The notes beneath the pieces are model-generated. The model did no database searches. It saw nothing but the letters and a program-made list of their open reading frames with translations, and was not told the origin of the DNA. 64,000 bases of DNA from Brevibacillus laterosporus DSM 25 (GTDB taxonomy: Bacteria > Bacillota > Bacilli > Brevibacillales > Brevibacillaceae). The position numbers were made by a program, and so were the translations under genes. Numbering within the stretch: position 1 is the first letter of the stretch; each line of letters starts with the position of its first letter. Shown piece after piece: positions 32,383 to 62,323 of the stretch. Where the stretch lies: contig NZ_CP017705.1 in assembly GCF_002706795.1 (NCBI RefSeq), forward strand, positions 1,134,001-1,198,000, in the 5' to 3' direction.

Positions 32383-33000
32383 ATGGCTAAGAAAACTACT
32401 CAAGAAACTAAAAAGGCTTTACTAGACGCATACGCACTTGTAATTGAAGAAGCTCGCCAGGAGTTTGAAGTTGAAAAAGCAGAGCAAGCGGCGACATGGA
32501 AAAAAGAACTGGCTCGCCAGAAAGAAGAAGACCTGTACCAGTTCAATAAAGAGAAACGTGCTCGTGAAGATAGCCTCGAAACAGAGTTACAAGATCGAGT
32601 AAAAGAAGTAGCTGATCGTGAAGCTAAAGTAGTTGAACGTGAAAACGCAATCGACCATGCAGAGCAAAGTATGGAAACACTTAAAGCTAAGGTAGACGCT
32701 ATTCCTGACCTGTTGGCTAAAGCGGAAACACAAGGCTTCAATAAAGGTAAGACAGATGCGAAGAAAGATTTCGACAACGAGATTCGTTTGCAGGATGCCG
32801 AGAACAAAGCCGACAAGCGTGTTCTTGAAAACCGCATCGCTACACTTGAAGAAACAGTAAGTTCTCAGGAAGATATGATCGAAACATTGCGTGAGGAACT
32901 GAAATCTGCTAACAGCCGTGTTGAATCTATCGCTACTAATGCTGTTGTAGCCGCAGGTCAGTCCAAAGTGACTGTTCAGACAGCAACAACTGGTAAGTAA
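32383..33000 (+). CDS. coiled-coil protein
   Basis: 205 residues, almost entirely Glu/Lys/Ala-rich helix with heptad character from about 15 to 185 and a short Thr/Ala/Gly-rich tail. AGGGGG precedes the ATG. No family is named. Such proteins in phages often serve as scaffolds or nucleoid-associated factors. It is the last gene before the terminator at 33109. Confidence 0.75.
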   Translation: MAKKTTQETKKALLDAYALVIEEARQEFEVEKAEQAATWKKELARQKEEDLYQFNKEKRAREDSLETELQDRVKEVADREAKVVERENAIDHAEQSMETLKAKVDAIPDLLAKAETQGFNKGKTDAKKDFDNEIRLQDAENKADKRVLENRIATLEETVSSQEDMIETLREELKSANSRVESIATNAVVAAGQSKVTVQTATTGK

Positions 33001-33108
33001 TCGAGCGGTCAGCCACTATTATCTACGGATGTAGATTGCAAGTAGACAGGAGACTCAAAACAAGTAATTTAGTTTGTAAATAAAAGTGTAACTTAAATCT
33101 AAATAATA

Positions 33109-33147
33109 AGACAAACGTCAGAATACAAGAGACTCTGACGTTTGTCT
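33109..33147. terminator. bidirectional terminator
   Basis: A perfect 14-bp stem (AGACAAACGTCAGA with its complement) lies between the converging coiled-coil gene and the accessory island. A/T-rich sequence flanks both sides. Confidence 0.7.
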
Positions 33148-33195
33148 ATTTAAAAGTTATTATCGGGACACGATCTGTAAATCGTATTTTAAATA

Positions 33196-33348
33196 CTACG
33201 ATTTTTTCTTTAATTCTTTGAACCCACGATACACATTTACGGAAGCTGATATCCCTAATAAGATCAGTATCATTGGGTTTACTTCAGAATTGAAATATAG
33301 GTAACCTAATAGACTAAACAGGACGACAGCTGTCAAAAAAGACACCAT
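33196..33348 (-). CDS. 50-residue two-helix membrane peptide
   Basis: It starts MVSFLTAVVLFSLLGYLYF, has a second hydrophobic segment (PMILILLGISASV) and a basic tail ending KELKKKS. AAGGAG stands 11 bases before the ATG at 33346-33348. It resembles small immunity or holin-like peptides but no family can be named. It is downstream of the secreted protein at 33389. Confidence 0.55.
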   Translation of the reverse strand: MVSFLTAVVLFSLLGYLYFNSEVNPMILILLGISASVNVYRGFKELKKKS

Positions 33349-33388
33349 AGTATAACTCTCTCCTTCCAGCTATCTCTATAAGTAATTA

Positions 33389-34033
33389 CTACCTACCATA
33401 GATCGAGATAACTACTGGTACCCAAGCTATATCGACGTTTACACCTTTCCCCTTATTTTTGCTAGTAAGTTTTCTTGCAAATTTTGCGTTTCCCCATGAC
33501 ATAATTGCTGAAGCAATACCTATACTTTGTCCACCTGGAACCAAGCCAGTAAGTGCTGACGCTAATGACCAATCAGTAGAATATTCTTCACACAAAGCGG
33601 CAAGTTCTTTTGTTTCTCTATTATTGTATTGCAGTGATATTCCCCACCAAAATTCTTCGTGATCAAATTGAGGATGTACTAGGTCTGTTTTTACTAATTT
33701 GTTATTTTGTATTTGATATTCTCCGCTGTTTAAAGCGTCATTGATTGTCTTAACGCCACGCTCGAAAATACTATACGCTTTCTCACCAATCAGTTCCTTA
33801 GCTTCAGGATCGAGATGTAGTAAATTATCTTTACCCAAGGTGACATATTGCCCCATGTCAACTTTTAAACCTGCTAACAAGGAGAGTCCTTCTTTGTCCA
33901 TCTCCGCTTGAACATATTGGTTTTTTTGTTCGATCGACAGATTAGAGTCAATGTTATTTGAAGCTACTGCTGGAATGATACCCGTTGATAACAAGGTTAC
34001 GGATAATACTCCAGTTAATATTTCCTTTTTCAT
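33389..34033 (-). CDS. secreted protein of unknown function
   Basis: 214 residues from the ATG at 34031-34033 (AAGGAG eight bases upstream). A signal peptide is clear: a Lys pair, a hydrophobic core (ILTGVLSVTLLSTGIIPAV) and cleavage after AVA. The mature part has a Gly/Ala-rich hydrophobic stretch near the C-terminus (ALTGLVPGGQSIGIASAIM), which could be membrane-active. It shares an operator-like upstream motif with the metalloprotease gene. Confidence 0.7.
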   Translation of the reverse strand: MKKEILTGVLSVTLLSTGIIPAVASNNIDSNLSIEQKNQYVQAEMDKEGLSLLAGLKVDMGQYVTLGKDNLLHLDPEAKELIGEKAYSIFERGVKTINDALNSGEYQIQNNKLVKTDLVHPQFDHEEFWWGISLQYNNRETKELAALCEEYSTDWSLASALTGLVPGGQSIGIASAIMSWGNAKFARKLTSKNKGKGVNVDIAWVPVVISIYGR

Positions 34034-34196
34034 ACATAACACTCCTTCTATAATATACCAAATTGATTAAAAAATTACAAATATTTACTTCATCATCTTG
34101 TGAAGATCAGCGTTTATAATGGGGAATTTTAGTCGTCTTCAAAGAATAGCTGGAACACGGCTTTATAATTATTCCCCCTATTGGGCTTTGTAAAGT

Positions 34197-34216
34197 TTCC
34201 CGTACAGCCTATTCAT
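34197..34216. promoter_or_regulatory. shared operator-like motif upstream of the secreted protein
   Basis: AATAGRCTGTACGGRAA occurs here and again at 37146-37163, each time upstream of a minus-strand gene for an exported protein, each with AGCTATTC further downstream. It could be a binding site for one of the two HTH-TPR regulators. Confidence 0.4.
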
Positions 34217-34302
34217 ATCGACCAACTAGTGTCTAATTCTTTTAAAAGTTTTGTGAATTTTTGTAAATCGCAATCATTTTGTGCTAAGATAGTTACAATA
34301 CT

Positions 34303-35736
34303 TCAATGTTTTACTGTTGGACGTTCCTTACTGAGGGGTTGGGAGCGTCCAATTAATCTTTCATCACGCATCACCTCCTCCAATTTTTTTTTGTATTCTA
34401 TTTCCTGATGAGCTGATGCTTGGTATCTATGCGCTTCAAATAGTGCTACGCATCGTATGAAATCTTTACTGCCATTCAATACAGTAGATAAAGTCATGCA
34501 TCTTAATATTTCTTTGATACCACTGTTAGGGCGCTTATTTTTTAAATGGTAAACAGCTAACTGATACCTAAATTGTAGATGTCGATCTACATTGGCTGAA
34601 TCATGGTAATTATCAAAATAGTTAATCTCCTTCGAGAACTTGTCTAGTATGATGTCTATTGAAAATCCATACTTGTTGGCTGATTCCACGATTGTTATAA
34701 AACCAAACAATAATTCTGTTGGGTTATATTCAAGGAATTCCACAAAGTCAGGAAGTATACTTGTATCTCCCATGAGGAGATCTAGCCTACACATGTTAAG
34801 CAACGCTAATTTCTTATATTTAGCTACCTCTGCCTGTCCAGACTCGTCAAGTAGTTCAAACCAGCTCAGATCAGCATAACCAGAAACAAATTCCTTGGCT
34901 TCTTCATACAGCCCTTGTTTCTCTAAAGATACTGCTTTTAAAAGATAGCCCTGACCATAGTAAGCGACCAAATGACTCTCAAGATTAAGCAGTTCTATTC
35001 CGTCACCATTTCCCCTCTTTTTCTTAGACAGCTCATCTTTGTAAACCAAATTAGTAAGTTCTAAAAGTTCGTCCGCAAATTTCTCTACCTCTTTCCATCT
35101 ACGCAATGTACAACAATGATTTCCTAGTCGTAAAAGCGCATCCAATTGGCAATATATAGACAGTTCCCTCCGAACAGGCTCAAAAATAAGAACAGCCTTC
35201 CATAGTGCCTCGGTGTTTGTGCTCTCTGAGAGTTGAAATAGCCGGTAGTGACTCATGATGATTGGTTCTTTGAACATATTTTTTTCGTTATCGACCACTA
35301 ATTGGTAAAAAAAGATGGACTCCTTCTGTCTCCCTTTGTAAAACAACTGTTCTGCTACACCAAAAAAAATTTTAATTTTATCAGGGTGTTCCAAGAGTAG
35401 AGGAATTACCAACTGAATACAATCATATCTCCCTAATTCTGCACATTGCACCAGAAATGATTTCGCTCGTCTGAGAGTAATTTTTACTCTATAGAAGTAT
35501 TCCTCAACGTATAAATCGTATAACCACCCATCAGGTTTTTCAAACACTTGTCCAATTGCATTCAATTGGTCAAGTGTTAGTTTCCTATACTTATGTCCCT
35601 TCAAATACCCACTTAGATGACCAGTATTGATATTGGTCAATTCACTGAGCTTACTAAGCGTGTAGTTATATGATTTGAGATGGTGTTCGATCTCAGCCCG
35701 TATTGGACTGGTTGCAAGTTTCTTTAGCGCTGTCAT
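34303..35736 (-). CDS. HTH-TPR regulator (RRNPP-like), first copy
   Basis: 477 residues from the ATG at 35734-35736 with CAGGAG upstream; longer in-frame codons lack a site. A Cro/CI-type helix-turn-helix covers about residues 10-70 (SKLSELTNINTGHLSGYLKG) and the rest is helical-repeat (TPR-like) sequence. That is the layout of peptide-sensing RRNPP regulators (NprR, PlcR, AimR). No clear peptide precursor follows; after the stop, 28 more sense codons in the same frame may be a relic. It overlaps the small gene at 35693-35893. Confidence 0.7.
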   Translation of the reverse strand: MTALKKLATSPIRAEIEHHLKSYNYTLSKLSELTNINTGHLSGYLKGHKYRKLTLDQLNAIGQVFEKPDGWLYDLYVEEYFYRVKITLRRAKSFLVQCAELGRYDCIQLVIPLLLEHPDKIKIFFGVAEQLFYKGRQKESIFFYQLVVDNEKNMFKEPIIMSHYRLFQLSESTNTEALWKAVLIFEPVRRELSIYCQLDALLRLGNHCCTLRRWKEVEKFADELLELTNLVYKDELSKKKRGNGDGIELLNLESHLVAYYGQGYLLKAVSLEKQGLYEEAKEFVSGYADLSWFELLDESGQAEVAKYKKLALLNMCRLDLLMGDTSILPDFVEFLEYNPTELLFGFITIVESANKYGFSIDIILDKFSKEINYFDNYHDSANVDRHLQFRYQLAVYHLKNKRPNSGIKEILRCMTLSTVLNGSKDFIRCVALFEAHRYQASAHQEIEYKKKLEEVMRDERLIGRSQPLSKERPTVKH

Positions 35737-35893
35737 ACAAAAGCACTCCTGTTTGATTTTTGTTTTGGGGACTTTCTCCTGTAAGACGCTTACCTTCCAG
35801 TGACTTTTCAAAGTCAATTGCTCTCTGAACCTTTTTCTTGTCCCTTTGAAGCTGTGTACAATCAATAGGGTCGGAATCAGCCCAAGCTTGCAT
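35693..35893 (-). CDS. 66-residue charged protein overlapping the regulator start
   Basis: It opens at the ATG at 35891-35893, seven bases after AGGGGGA, and ends 44 bases inside the regulator gene, so the two are probably translationally coupled. It is hydrophilic, begins MQAWADSDPIDC, and has no recognised family or signal peptide. Confidence 0.5.
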   Translation of the reverse strand: MQAWADSDPIDCTQLQRDKKKVQRAIDFEKSLEGKRLTGESPQNKNQTGVLLYDSAKETCNQSNTG

Positions 35894-35917
35894 ATTACTT
35901 CCCCCTAAGTCTCAACT

Positions 35918-36505
35918 TTATGGAACTGACTTTTCGAAAATATCTTTATATTTTTCCACTACTTCATCTCTCAAATTTTGATAGTGGCTATTCTCTGATG
36001 CTAACCCTTGTACCTTATCAGACTCATCAATATCAAATTTGCCTTGGTATACACCTAACAAACTATAGTTTTCACCGTCATGAGCCTTTTTTAAGAACAG
36101 AAGGTACTCTTTTCCTTTTTCCATAGGTGTAAAACCCTCTATTGTTTCTAAATCGGCTTGATATTTAAAAGAGCTTTCTACATAGGCGGCGGCTTGAAGG
36201 ACAGGAATAACCTTTGTATCAGCGTCTCCTTTGAGGGTTTTATCAATGATGATATCAGTTTTTGTATAGAATTCTCCAACTCTTCCCTCTGAAGTATATT
36301 TAAAGGTTGGCTCATATTCTGAGAAGTCCCTTTCAAGATGTCCTACTACAATATAATCTGCTCCCCTTTCTAACGCTTCGACATTTTTGTAACCTACTAC
36401 TTTAGCCTCGACCTTCATAATTTTAGATGGCGTCAAAAAGTAAAAGCCACCAGCAACCAATGCAACCGAACAAACAATTGTTCCTGCCAGTTTTTTCATG
36501 CTCAT
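35918..36505 (-). CDS. membrane-anchored or secreted protein, unknown
   Basis: 195 residues. The N-terminus KKLAGTIVCSVALVAGGFYFL is a signal anchor, and the remainder (about 35-195) is a soluble Tyr/Glu/Lys-rich domain facing outwards. It begins four bases after the metalloprotease stop with GGGGGAAA as ribosome site, so the two are co-translated. It may be a partner or inhibitor of the protease, which is inference from coupling. Confidence 0.65.
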   Translation of the reverse strand: MSMKKLAGTIVCSVALVAGGFYFLTPSKIMKVEAKVVGYKNVEALERGADYIVVGHLERDFSEYEPTFKYTSEGRVGEFYTKTDIIIDKTLKGDADTKVIPVLQAAAYVESSFKYQADLETIEGFTPMEKGKEYLLFLKKAHDGENYSLLGVYQGKFDIDESDKVQGLASENSHYQNLRDEVVEKYKDIFEKSVP

Positions 36506-36508
36506 TAA

Positions 36509-37069
36509 CTATTTCCCCCACTTCAACTTCAGATTTTTCTCATCATCTGTCTGAATATCTGTACTTAATGCATATGGGTGCATAATCAAATCTGAGTCTG
36601 AGTTATTATGTGCTAAACTCAATGCATGTCCCATCTCGTGAGTAAATACGCCCCTTTGTTCGCTAAGCCCAATTCTCGATAGAGTATTGTCATATCCAAT
36701 AACATCTATGTTGTCCCAAATTTCATCTAGATCATAATCTCTAGCTCCATTGCTAAATGGCATCATAATCCCATATAAATCATCATTATCAGCATTTGTG
36801 AGTATCACACTCACTTTTGCACCAGAGTTACCCTCAGTTAGCTTAACCTTTGATGAAATTCCGTTCCAAGCCTCAACTCCAGCTTTCATTACATTTCTTT
36901 GATAGGAAGAACTTCCGCCAGCTATTACATACTTGATTTTCTTAACATCTGAAGCCCGTAACCCTCCCGTAAACAGATATTTCTTGCCGTAATCAGCATA
37001 TGCTACAGCAGAAAAAAGAGATACACATGATAAAGTAGTAACAATTGCAATCTTTAGTTTTTTTCTCAT
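36509..37069 (-). CDS. secreted zinc metalloprotease (matrixin-like)
   Basis: 186 residues. A signal peptide ends at AYA-D (about 26). HEMGHALSLAH (H144, E145, H148, H154) is the HExxHxxGxxH-type metzincin site with Gly replaced, and LIMHP supplies the Met-turn at M163. Small matrixins of this size are known in Firmicutes and their phages. It lies between the Spo0E-like gene and a membrane-anchored protein, 0.6 kb downstream of the pheromone precursor. AGGAGG precedes the ATG. Confidence 0.85.
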   Translation of the reverse strand: MRKKLKIAIVTTLSCVSLFSAVAYADYGKKYLFTGGLRASDVKKIKYVIAGGSSSYQRNVMKAGVEAWNGISSKVKLTEGNSGAKVSVILTNADNDDLYGIMMPFSNGARDYDLDEIWDNIDVIGYDNTLSRIGLSEQRGVFTHEMGHALSLAHNNSDSDLIMHPYALSTDIQTDDEKNLKLKWGK

Positions 37070-37161
37070 TCGTGCATTTCCTCCTAATTTAAAGGTCTGT
37101 CGGACTTCGAATAGCTAAAAACGGCTATTCATATATCGCAAGGGCTTCCGTACAGTCTATT

Positions 37162-37347
37162 CTAGTCTCGACATTCATTTAGATTTTTTGCCATCTTCTG
37201 AATTGCGACAATATATTCGTCTAGTTGTTGACTTATTTGCAACACTGTTGGACTTAAAAATGAACCTTCTGTACGATATAGTTCTACTAATTTTTGCTGG
37301 AGGTCTTCAAAAGACTTTAATAAATCATTTTCAGACAGTGAAATAAT
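37162..37347 (-). CDS. Spo0E-like aspartyl-phosphate phosphatase, probable ATT start
   Basis: 61 residues. It carries the family signature in order: LQQKLVELYRTEGSFLSPTV and SQQLDEYIV, matching the LRxKMxxxxxxxGL...SQELDxLI pattern of Spo0E proteins, which dephosphorylate Spo0A~P and hold back sporulation. No ATG, GTG or TTG fits; AAAGGAGG lies seven bases before an ATT (37345-37347), so an ATT start is likely, a codon otherwise best known from infC. An internal start is possible but would remove the first helix. Confidence 0.72.
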   Translation of the reverse strand: MISLSENDLLKSFEDLQQKLVELYRTEGSFLSPTVLQISQQLDEYIVAIQKMAKNLNECRD

Positions 37348-37409
37348 GCTTTTTCCTCCTTTAATTCGATGATATAATTTTTCTGAACAACGTTTTTAGT
37401 TGATCAAAG

Positions 37410-37450
37410 CGGGGTGTTCCAATTAGTTTAGCGACCGTTGGGACACCCCG
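37410..37450. repeat. long inverted repeat between Spo0E-like gene and pheromone locus
   Basis: CGGGGTGTTCC and GGGACACCCCG pair with one mismatch around a 19-base loop. There is no strong T-run on either strand, so it may be a weak terminator or an operator. Confidence 0.5.
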
Positions 37451-37518
37451 TTGTTTAACTGATACCAATTAACTAAATCCCTCCTTTTTCCTGTTATTGA
37501 TTATTTTACCATCCGTTT

Positions 37519-37542
37519 AGGGGAATCCCCCTATTTTTTTTT
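37519..37542 (+). terminator. possible plus-strand terminator
   Basis: AGGGG and CCCCT pair around AATC, followed by A and nine or more T. The stem is short. Confidence 0.4.
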
Positions 37543-37589
37543 CGAGGAAACGTTCTAACTATATTTATGATGAGCAATAAAATTTTCAC

Positions 37590-37621
37590 AAAAAAAAAGA
37601 ACGCTATTTATTTAGCGCTCT
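37590..37621 (-). terminator. terminator of the regulator-pheromone operon
   Basis: On the minus strand GAGCGCTA and TAGCGTTC pair around AATAAA and are followed by nine T. The reverse orientation also has TTTTTT, so it can work both ways. Confidence 0.8.
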
Positions 37622-37650
37622 CTTTTTTATTTGAGGATAAAACAATTGAA

Positions 37651-37794
37651 TTAATGACCAGGATCAACAAAATAAGATTGAGCTTTTTGCGGAGAATTTA
37701 ATTCTTTAGCACTTGCAGTTTCAGTATTTGCTGTAATGCCTAGAGTCATCACTAAGGCTAACGACAACATCAACATTCCATATGCTTTTCTCAA
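37651..37794 (-). CDS. peptide-pheromone precursor (Phr/AimP/NprX-like)
   Basis: 47 residues. The TTG start (37792-37794) follows the regulator stop with no gap, and AAGGAGGGG lies inside the last regulator codons, so the pair is translationally coupled. The N-terminus MRKAYGMLMLSLALVMTLG is a signal peptide with a likely ASA cleavage site; the exported part is short (KELNSPQKAQSYFVDPGH), and by analogy the active peptide would be its C-terminal five to eight residues (such as FVDPGH). Size, export signal and place directly after an HTH-TPR gene match Phr, NprX and AimP precursors. A terminator follows at 37590-37621. Confidence 0.75.
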   Translation of the reverse strand: MRKAYGMLMLSLALVMTLGITANTETASAKELNSPQKAQSYFVDPGH

Positions 37795-39081
37795 TTATAA
37801 CCCCTCCTTTTTGTTTGCAATATCAGTATACACCTCTTTTAGTCTTACAACATATTCCAAATCCATTGATTTAGAATTTGCTGTAAACAAAGCTAAAAAT
37901 TCGGTCATGCATTCTGCAAGTTCTTGAATTGCATAAACAGCTCCAAATGTCTTTAAGCTTAGTAAATATGATCTTGCTCCTTCATTAAATATGCAATTTT
38001 TGGTCAAATAATTCCCTTTATACTGGAAGTATTTACCGATAGCTATTTTTTTATAAGGAGTTGTTGGATTTTGAGGTAGAAATTCTGGCTCAAGGTTAAA
38101 AATTTCTTCAATCGAAGTAGAATCACTCTCCTGAAGATACAAATCTAATAATTCATTGATTACATGTATCTTCAAGTCACTTTGTACCACTTCATAGCAT
38201 TTTCTTAGTGCTGGAATAGCTATACTGAAATGTTTCCTTTTCCCTTGTATAATAGCTCTAGTAATTTTACATGAATCGGAAACGAACTCAAATCCGTATT
38301 TTTCTAAAAAGTCCAGATGGTACTCTGCCATATCGTAATTTTTCAGGAAACCATAGGAATTTATCATAGATAAATAAGCTCTAGCCTTCAACTCGTTGCT
38401 TGAAACATCTAGTCTAAGACCTGCTTCACAATACTCGATACACTCATTATATTTTTTAGTATTATGAGCATGTAAAGCCATTTTAAAGTAATATGTTATC
38501 TTTTCATTATCAGATAAAAAATCAACATAGTGAGTGATTTCTTCACCATCTCTAAAGGATTCTTCCAAACGTTTTAAATTTTGTCTCTCAATTAAGTATT
38601 TTTGATATAACCCTTTAGCTATGTAATGTGGTAGCCCATGCTGTCTAGAGTACTTCACAATTGTGTTATAGAGCGTTACCTTTGTATCGTTGTTTGTGCT
38701 GGAATCTGCAAATCGTTCCAAATGCTCCAGCGCTGAATCTGTTTCATGCTTAATATTTTCTAGGAATTTGATTGCCACTTTATCAATCAAAGAAGGGTTA
38801 GCAATTTCTATGGCTTCTTCCAAGAGATCATCGTAGACATCATAACGATATTCTGCCCTGATGCAATATTCAATTATTTCCTCATAAGGGATTTCTAAAA
38901 CATCGGCAATTGGCTTTAAAGTAGCCAGCTCTGGTCCTTTTGTTTCACCATTTTCAATCTTGGAAATCCCTCCCTTGCTAATGCCAGTTTTTCTGGAAAC
39001 CTCAGACAAACTAATACCTAAATCCTCTCTTTTCTTCTTTATCAGTTCCCCCAATGTTGTGGAAGTTAAAATTTCGTCCAT
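37795..39081 (-). CDS. HTH-TPR quorum-sensing regulator (RRNPP family)
   Basis: 428 residues. The XRE-type DNA-binding domain spans about 8-65 (LGISLSEVSRKTGISKGGISKIENGE); the remaining 360 residues form TPR-like helical repeats (for instance KKYNECIEYCEAGLRLD). Length and domain order match NprR (about 420) more closely than AimR (about 380). Binding of the reimported peptide encoded just downstream would switch DNA binding or protein contacts. Sequence is AT-richer than the structural genes, which suggests separate acquisition. GGAAGGGG precedes the ATG. Confidence 0.8.
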   Translation of the reverse strand: MDEILTSTTLGELIKKKREDLGISLSEVSRKTGISKGGISKIENGETKGPELATLKPIADVLEIPYEEIIEYCIRAEYRYDVYDDLLEEAIEIANPSLIDKVAIKFLENIKHETDSALEHLERFADSSTNNDTKVTLYNTIVKYSRQHGLPHYIAKGLYQKYLIERQNLKRLEESFRDGEEITHYVDFLSDNEKITYYFKMALHAHNTKKYNECIEYCEAGLRLDVSSNELKARAYLSMINSYGFLKNYDMAEYHLDFLEKYGFEFVSDSCKITRAIIQGKRKHFSIAIPALRKCYEVVQSDLKIHVINELLDLYLQESDSTSIEEIFNLEPEFLPQNPTTPYKKIAIGKYFQYKGNYLTKNCIFNEGARSYLLSLKTFGAVYAIQELAECMTEFLALFTANSKSMDLEYVVRLKEVYTDIANKKEGL

Positions 39082-39296
39082 ACAAATCCCCTTCCAGAAA
39101 ATTAATAAAACGTGATATTTCTTAACATATTACCTTAAATGTATATATTTGTAAATAGTAGTTAAATTATGTAATAAATATCTTAGATTCTGATGAGAAG
39201 GGAATTTGTGTTTTAAGGGGGACGATGGAAGTCTGTAGTACGCTCCTAGCAGTGGACGATGCTATAGGTTCCTATAGGTGGATTATCGTGTATTGT

Positions 39297-39312
39297 CTCG
39301 TATATACGAATC
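39297..39312. promoter_or_regulatory. perfect palindrome upstream of the secreted SLH gene
   Basis: TCGTATATACGA is a 12-base perfect palindrome about 55 bases before the SLH gene start, between the divergent regulator and SLH genes. It could be an operator. Confidence 0.4.
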
Positions 39313-39365
39313 AAATCGTTCTATGCTAATATGGGGAAACATCATAAGAAAGGCAGGTAGTAACT

Positions 39366-40163
39366 ATGAAGAAGAGGATTGTACTAGCGATAACACTAGC
39401 TTCATCACTGCTTATCGGCTCCACTGCCGCAAGCGCACAGACCTCCAATTTCAAAGATGTGAGTGAGACCCAACACTCGTGGGCGATCAGTTCCATCAGC
39501 TTCATGACCGAGAAAGGAGTAGTCACGGGATACTCGGACGGGACATTCAAGCCTGATGAGAAAGTCACCAAAGCCGAGTTTATCTCGATGACTCACAAGC
39601 TATTTGACAAGTACAGATCACAGGAGCTAGTTGTGGACAAATTCATTGATGTCCCGAAGAATTACTGGGCGTACACTGCGATCTACGACATGGCACCAAT
39701 GATGGATACTGGGAACTTCTCTTACTATACAAAGGAAGGTAAGGTGTTCGATCCTGATAAAGAACTTACAAGAATGGGGGTCGTGAACCTTCTGCCTGAA
39801 GTTTACAGTCCAATTTCTTTAGACGAAGCGTATAAGAGAGTCTCCAAGATGCAAGACTTCAAGATCGTAGTCTCCGATAACTACGATGACAACAGATACA
39901 TGTATGGAGTCGATATGACCAACACTGTATTCCCTTTCGTAATTGACTACTTAGACAATGGTACTATGAAAATCTTTGACGATTACACGGAAGTTGTTGC
40001 CCCGAAAGTGGCATCCCTTCAACAGCACGGTATCATGACAACATATAATGGAGAATTTGAAGCCGCCGATCAGGTCACCAGGGCTGAAGCCGTGACCATA
40101 TTACATCGCCTGTACAACCACCTAAAGGATAATGGCGAGCTATCTAAATATTCGAGTAAGTAG
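39366..40163 (+). CDS. secreted protein with SLH domains
   Basis: 265 residues. The signal peptide ends at ASA-Q (about 24). The first SLH domain is complete (FKDVSETQHSWAISSISF, YSDGTFKPDE, VTKAEF); a second begins FIDVPKNYWAYTAIYDM; the third ends ITT...VTRAEAVTILHRLY. Three such domains are what bacteria use to hold exported proteins on pyruvylated wall polymer. With almost nothing else in the protein, its job may be to occupy that polymer, blocking either S-layer assembly or adsorption of further SLH-tailed phages. Confidence 0.85.
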   Translation: MKKRIVLAITLASSLLIGSTAASAQTSNFKDVSETQHSWAISSISFMTEKGVVTGYSDGTFKPDEKVTKAEFISMTHKLFDKYRSQELVVDKFIDVPKNYWAYTAIYDMAPMMDTGNFSYYTKEGKVFDPDKELTRMGVVNLLPEVYSPISLDEAYKRVSKMQDFKIVVSDNYDDNRYMYGVDMTNTVFPFVIDYLDNGTMKIFDDYTEVVAPKVASLQQHGIMTTYNGEFEAADQVTRAEAVTILHRLYNHLKDNGELSKYSSK

Positions 40164-62317: not shown

Positions 62318-62323
62318 AAACTA

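Follow-up and report, generated by a model that had tools for sequence, protein, structure and literature searches.

The gene pair described here, located in Brevibacillus laterosporus DSM 25, raises the question of whether a DNA-binding protein and the small gene directly behind it constitute a peptide-pheromone system and, if so, what is regulated by it. The window analysed comprises 64,000 nucleotides (contig NZ_CP017705.1, positions 1,134,001 to 1,198,000), to which the positions given refer; the pair, the genes behind it in the cassette and their promoter, terminator and leader elements are located on its minus strand. The upstream gene (37795-39081, ATG start) encodes a protein of 428 amino acids with an XRE-type helix-turn-helix (HTH) and a TPR-like superhelix, as judged from the open reading frame (ORF), the HTH_3 domain and a structural model. 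It is followed with zero spacing by an ORF of 47 amino acids (37651-37794), which starts at TTG and ends in KAQSYFVDPGH. The start codon stands behind a good, strong ribosome-binding site (AAAGGAGGGG-TTATAA-TTG, the site itself at 37801-37810). A putative sigma-70-like promoter (TTTACA-N17-TAATAT, 39127-39155), assigned by its match to the consensus, precedes the receptor gene. By eye, the same -35/-10 pattern lies upstream of most close paralogs listed in the alignment, and the TATACA within the spacer recurs in close paralogs. The operon is closed by a terminator (37590-37630; folding energy -18.1 kcal/mol, z -5.9), and in 14 aligned loci a hairpin with a T-run is seen by eye at the same place. 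The first-pass annotation, made from the letters of the window, had described the HTH-TPR regulator, the zero-spaced TTG gene ending in SYFVDPGH and the terminator, all of which were found again here.

That annotation also assigned a signal peptide with an ASA cleavage site to the small protein. Using a heuristic based on N-terminal charge and hydropathy only, we found features of a putative signal peptide, namely a basic N-terminus, a hydrophobic core averaging 2.4 on the Kyte-Doolittle scale across 12 residues, and an AxA site. By eye, the ASA site is not conserved among the paralogs. The mature peptide probably corresponds to the last 5-8 residues of the propeptide. Judged by its substitution pattern, the propeptide is under purifying selection: the pooled pN/pS was 0.27 (range 0.12-0.69) over 9 pairs of orthologs or near-paralogs, 11 pairs having been planned and 2 dropped for a partner (L063, ending in NEDLGH) without the motif introduced below. 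Between the window and its ortholog in genome G003, 7 synonymous and 3 nonsynonymous changes were counted, none of them within the last 14 residues. At that orthologous locus (L077, G003:C1:4568324-4569602) the receptor frame is split and the peptide still ends in SYFVDPGH, i.e. the signal is kept beside a broken receptor.

For the receptor, Pfam sees mainly the HTH, with 47.5 bits for HTH_3 (cut-off 23) and 21.5 bits for TPR_1, which is under its cut-off of 27.8. No NCBIfam family exceeded its cut-off for six cassette proteins. A single-sequence search against solved structures delivered 44 matches, mostly to the HTH alone and with neither NprR nor AimR among them; the best 60 of 113 matches of a profile search included designed TPR proteins and again neither NprR nor AimR. 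An AlphaFold model, built from six sequences (pLDDT 81.7, pTM 0.62), is all-helical and forms a TPR-like superhelix. The highest-scoring RRNPP structure compared with this model was apo NprR (Z 17.8, rmsd 5.9 over 283 residues), followed by NprR-NprX (Z 17.6), RapF with its inhibitory peptide (Z 17.4) and AimR (Z 15.6, residues 7-421, rmsd 18.4). Since scores equal to that of NprR are also reached by eukaryotic TPR proteins (LGN, Z 18.1), the modelled fold is consistent with an RRNPP receptor rather than diagnostic of one. With respect to the earlier label of an NprR/AimR-like regulator, both proteins are matched by fold, and by sequence neither is among the matches listed. Fusing receptor and propeptide in one model, with the stop codon read through, gave a pLDDT of 25-46 for the peptide tail, which speaks neither for nor against docking. 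Rap proteins are not known to have an HTH domain. Membership of the receptor in the Rap group was rejected, HTH_3 being well over the cut-off; loss of the HTH is treated in PMC12700828.

A survey of the receptor family carries more of the argument. The survey set comprised 51 receptors of at least 250 amino acids from the window, five genomes of the genus, phages and plasmids; it includes orthologs, and its members are hence not independent. A signal-peptide-like ORF lies downstream of 48 of them, and in 37 of the 51 an ORF ends in [DN]P[GQL][HYFWG], compared with 1 of 788 control ORFs, which were the signal-peptide-like ORFs elsewhere in the window and in loci L056-L102. The single control ORF with the motif belongs to a locus that also contains receptor fragments. 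Part of the survey data had already been seen when the motif was written. Three of the 14 receptors without it have no signal-peptide-like ORF at all, and other endings, for example IEPEW, STDPNW, THGGIHPW and VKTFLQ, occur among the motif-less loci. A later viral set consisted of 11 loci, five of which matched the HTH only and six most of the receptor length; two of these six, the present prophage and phage Sundance, had been seen earlier. The remaining four all have the motif (DYDPGY, RDDPGH, LDDPGY and RDDPQG). The residues preceding DPG differ between copies (FV, VV, VY, AY, FE, NE, HD and TG, among others), as expected from these sequences if they spell a signal dialect. We rejected the reading of the propeptide as a chance ORF, which is contradicted by the co-occurrence, the four later finds and the purifying selection. 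Receptor and propeptide almost certainly form a real pair, and the RRNPP architecture of receptor and pheromone precursor, also put forward in the first-pass annotation, has good support from the co-occurrence across the family, from the purifying selection and from the fold.

Bernard et al. 2023 (PMC10075063) define RRNPP systems by receptors of 250-500 amino acids, propeptides of 10-100 amino acids, TPRs and direct adjacency of both genes, with a Sec signal peptide on the propeptide as a further criterion. Here, the receptor has 428 and the propeptide 47 amino acids, the spacing is zero, and TPRs are present at the level of fold, the superhelix resembling NprR, Rap, AimR and other TPR proteins. 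Among the candidate RRNPPA subfamilies of that work is a Paenibacillaceae cluster 8, which is subfamily 08 in PMC12700828, and for B. laterosporus LMG 15441 a plasmid with two systems is reported, one of them AloR-AloP and the other a novel one of cluster 8 (PMC10075063). On pBRLA33, a plasmid of this strain, BRLA_RS22615 is 42% identical to the 428-residue receptor over 418 columns and is followed by a peptide ending in DYDPGY; BRLA_RS22620 is 59% identical to a second receptor of the window and is followed by a peptide ending in EHGVGG, resembling the SHGRGG of AloP13. BRLA_RS22615 would then be the cluster 8 member of the LMG 15441 plasmid. Because the pBRLA33 genes pair up in this way, RS22615 with the 428-residue receptor and RS22620 with the AloR-like one, the 428-residue receptor is most simply placed in cluster 8, and we regard its membership in subfamily 08 as very likely. 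Common to both are the Paenibacillaceae, a propeptide of putative Sec type after the receptor and DPG peptides, the members of the subfamily occurring on chromosomes, plasmids and phages; the window copy differs in its location in a Brevibacillus prophage, in the dialect SYFVDPGH and in the orphan AloR-like receptor nearby. The DPG motif is described as widespread in peptides of subfamily 08 and AimR, and FoldTree puts subfamily 08 in the AimR clan (both PMC12700828).

The AloR-AloP systems of Paenibacillus polymyxa (PMC7425212) are likewise receptor-propeptide operons, several with spo0E downstream and with many copies per genome. The second receptor of the window (34303-35736), recognized by similarity, fits there and has relatives on pBRLA33 and elsewhere in the same genome. 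The 428-residue receptor, in contrast, is only distantly related to it in a profile comparison (hhalign 91.8%, E 7e-7, 17% identity), and the peptides of its family end in DPG[HYFW] instead of SHGRGG or EHGVGG. Compared by BLAST with three AloR-like receptors, the 428-residue receptor gave no full-length match, and its AloR membership was rejected at this level. The second receptor hits a plasmid of P. polymyxa ATCC 842 with 29% identity, and this plasmid is absent from the 7 records hit by the 428-residue receptor. The receptor on this plasmid overlaps a small peptide gene ending in STQGYIGGA, so HGxGG is no rule for the AloR-like family. A propeptide was sought for the AloR-like receptor of the window and was not found, as was also the case for SecTim467 gp69. 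AloR13 itself was sought by two primer-based patterns, with 0 matches and then 15, one of which (Cohnella, L054) belongs to the same taxonomic family; a receptor search of L054 found nothing. AimR-AimP (arbitrium) shares with the window pair a phage-borne receptor of HTH and TPRs, and DPG motifs are reported in both (PMC12700828), but the pair stands in a low-GC cassette with spo0E adjoining and has no solved AimR among the matches listed. NprR-NprX has the same receptor layout but a different peptide and taxon, and no solved NprR is among these matches either.

Not only the pair but also its surroundings are relevant for the question of what is controlled. It belongs to a low-GC cassette (33350-39330, borders set by eye), with 35.8% GC compared with 43.5-46.3% in the surroundings, which is probably mobile. 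Downstream of the pair follow a frame for a Spo0E-family phosphatase, discussed below, a matrixin-like metalloprotease (36509-37069; Peptidase_M10 at a marginal 24.6 bits, cut-off 24), a hypothetical protein (35918-36505, an ORF in conserved gene order), the AloR-like orphan receptor and an ORF matching phrog_30375 (33389-34042); by eye, the protease, the hypothetical protein and the phrog_30375 protein have signal-like N-termini. A B. halotolerans plasmid carries receptor, Spo0E, matrixin and hypothetical protein in an order matching the window. A stretch with ATAGGCTGTACGG (about 34135-34247) was noticed ahead of the 33389-34042 gene. It is also present at the G003 ortholog locus, there downstream of spo0E, and on pBRLA33, there in front of the AloR-like gene, and is possibly an AloR-type operator. 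Phage SecTim467 has a low-GC cassette of the same kind (receptor gp71, Spo0E gp70, AloR-like receptor gp69), to which the window adds the matrixin-like gene and its neighbour. Merrill et al. 2016 (PMC4909266) described the SecTim467/Sundance region as a putative transposon ("transposable region") missing from Jenst, in a description that makes no mention of quorum sensing. The SecTim467 propeptide (ending in YTDDPGY and overlapping the 3' end of the receptor) is unannotated, and that of Sundance (L014) is annotated as a hypothetical protein. Jenst gp67 (L016) represents the N-terminal, HTH-bearing part of a receptor only, where SecTim467 gp71 (L015) has the whole cassette; quorum-sensing content thus differs between closely related phages.

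By sequence comparison, the cassette is placed in a prophage of about 113 kb: an IMG/VR contig of 112,978 bp is identical to the window over the 13,284 bases compared. Portal and terminase genes are located to the left, the terminase being 51% identical to those of Jenst and SecTim467. When the far end of the IMG/VR contig is projected by position, it coincides with a serine integrase next to the host pyruvate carboxylase gene. This integrase (G000:C1:1083341-1084852), some 87 kb from the receptor-propeptide pair, marks where the prophage ends on the left. On the right, the end is provisional, with lysis-type genes continuing beyond the projected border at about position 62318. A search of the two boundary stretches revealed neither a shared direct repeat of at least 14 bases nor a tRNA. 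The prophage, the low-GC cassette, the orphan AloR-like receptor and the spo0E-like frame had been overlooked in the first-pass annotation, the last perhaps because it has no standard start codon.

This frame (37162-37395, stop to stop; PF09388 37.6 bits, cut-off 23) has no ATG, GTG or TTG ahead of the domain, and ATT or CTG behind a GGAGG would be needed to start it. The spo0E copy on the B. halotolerans plasmid also has no standard start near its ribosome-binding site, and the record annotates a CDS of 83 amino acids from further upstream. With pN/pS values of 0.16 and 0.28 against two relatives, the frame is, by this measure, under purifying selection. In the 14 aligned stretches behind the propeptide we saw by eye the terminator and then, in most, an extended -10 element and a long stem-loop; in the window, alignment places the putative -10 element (TGGTAAAAT) of the spo0E-like gene at 37503-37511 and, together with folding, the stem-loop in its leader at 37410-37450. 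Between terminator and spo0E promoter lies a candidate operator, ACGTTTC (37547-37553), suggested by its recurrence: the element occurs at +130 to +320 in 16 of the 51 loci, where 0.015 would be expected per locus, although related loci are not independent. Eleven of these 16 have a Spo0E-like ORF, three of the pBRLA33 type are without one, and one more has a different context. Behind 17 of the 51 receptors a Spo0E-like ORF was found, some of them weak or degenerate, at loci including phages Sundance and SecTim467 and two Paenibacillus plasmids.

Taken together, the spo0E-like gene is probably a main target of the receptor. It cannot be the sole one, because for 34 of the 51 receptors no Spo0E-like ORF was detected within 2.5 kb on the same strand, some stretches ending sooner. 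The same count speaks for a different reading, in which the RRNPP pair is real but acts mainly on another target: the matrixin-like protease and the gene next to it, the orphan AloR-like receptor, or genes elsewhere. This reading is also in line with the conserved genes for the protease and its neighbour in the cassette, with the missing standard start codon of the window spo0E and with the finding that AloP13 altered other alo genes too (PMC7425212). Cross-talk is likely as well, since by sequence the host has about ten related receptors. Against a main target other than spo0E stand the ACGTTTC element, which precedes the Spo0E-like ORF in 11 of the 17 loci having such an ORF, and the purifying selection on the window frame, and we consider this alternative rather unlikely.

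The interpretation we favour, and hold to be reasonably probable, is that of a cytoplasmic peptide-pheromone receptor of RRNPPA subfamily 08 and its pheromone gene in a prophage cassette, the peptide controlling transcription of the spo0E-like gene and thereby tuning sporulation of the host. The steps of processing, binding and regulation are modelled on the way RRNPP systems work. The propeptide would be exported through Sec and trimmed outside to a C-terminal peptide, e.g. FVDPGH or YFVDPGH. The host oligopeptide permease would take this peptide back into the cell, where it would bind in the TPR groove of the receptor. The bound peptide may then change the action of the receptor at the spo0E promoter and perhaps at the receptor's own promoter. 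In this way the prophage would adjust the amount of a Spo0A-P phosphatase, and with it the sporulation of the host, to the density of carrier cells. In P. polymyxa, AloR13 directly controls the adjacent spo0E, and in a B. subtilis reporter it activates the spo0E promoter and the peptide shuts it off (PMC7425212). By analogy with AloR13, the peptide would reduce spo0E and so allow sporulation once the density is high.

An arbitrium-like lysis-lysogeny switch, in which peptide density sets repression or induction of the prophage and the spo0E-like gene is a passenger, would agree with the prophage location of the pair, with its relatives in other phages and with the place of subfamily 08 in the AimR clan and the DPG motifs common to both (PMC12700828). 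However, the pair lies in the low-GC cassette beside structural genes and about 87 kb from the integrase, and no phage repressor was found among the neighbouring proteins scanned around the cassette. Relatives also occur on plasmids, and phage Jenst keeps only a receptor remnant (PMC4909266). We therefore regard such a switch as unlikely.

In the genome of the window, 10 further copies match the receptor across 360 residues or more; two of these are interrupted by an internal stop, and several fragments are present besides. Such broken copies, the split receptor frame of the G003 ortholog and the lack of a standard start in spo0E might indicate decaying cargo which is little expressed and has lost its signalling, a reading that is compatible with the others. 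Receptor and propeptide of the window are intact, though, and equipped with a promoter-like site, ribosome-binding site and terminator, and the pN/pS of the propeptide is low, which makes decay improbable here. An ordinary XRE repressor beside a chance or unrelated small ORF, for which one could cite the dominance of the HTH in Pfam and in the single-sequence structure matches, is hardly credible in view of the co-occurring DPG-type ORFs, the four later finds, the purifying selection and the TPR-like superhelix.

The leader of the spo0E-like gene shows a further peculiarity. Its stem-loop has a conserved stem (GGGCGTTCC/GGAACGCCC) around a loop of 18-19 nt that can face either way, which looks like the inversion of a very small segment: among 15 related loci, one orientation scores better in 8 and the reverse complement in the other 7, in some cases by small margins. 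L095 is a 16th match with an unrelated loop. Two further copies are present in the same genome beside apparent spo0E remnants. Rfam gave 0 matches at gathering scores in 33000-39400, which includes this stem-loop. As a tentative and rather doubtful extension of the favoured interpretation, the giant prophage and its relatives may carry a swappable quorum-sensing cassette, consisting of receptor, DPG-anchored peptide with variable front, viral spo0E, protease and orphan second receptor, which reads the number of carriers and sets sporulation, with the spo0E leader additionally controlled by the flipping stem-loop with its 19-nt loop.

Much of this is already in print, namely the family (PMC10075063), the DPG motif (PMC12700828), the control of spo0E by a related receptor (PMC7425212) and a homologous phage cassette (PMC4909266); the idea of phage quorum sensing over sporulation is likewise found in PMC10075063. 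The first-pass annotation had suggested that the signal code may be new. With the DPG motif already described in PMC12700828, this narrows to the dialect SYFVDPGH at most, and only this dialect of the window peptide may be new. In the open-access literature, preprints being outside the scope, no experiment on subfamily 08 or on quorum sensing of Brevibacillus phages was found. Because the window copy is intact, prophage-borne and adjoins a sporulation-phosphatase frame, two published proposals can be put to a direct test with it. One holds that Paenibacillaceae receptors related to AimR have DPG peptides as their signals, the other that phages steer host sporulation by peptide quorum sensing. 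Since mainly the residues before DPG differ, the paralogs within this one genome moreover represent a ready set for studying how the specificity of receptor and peptide diverges.
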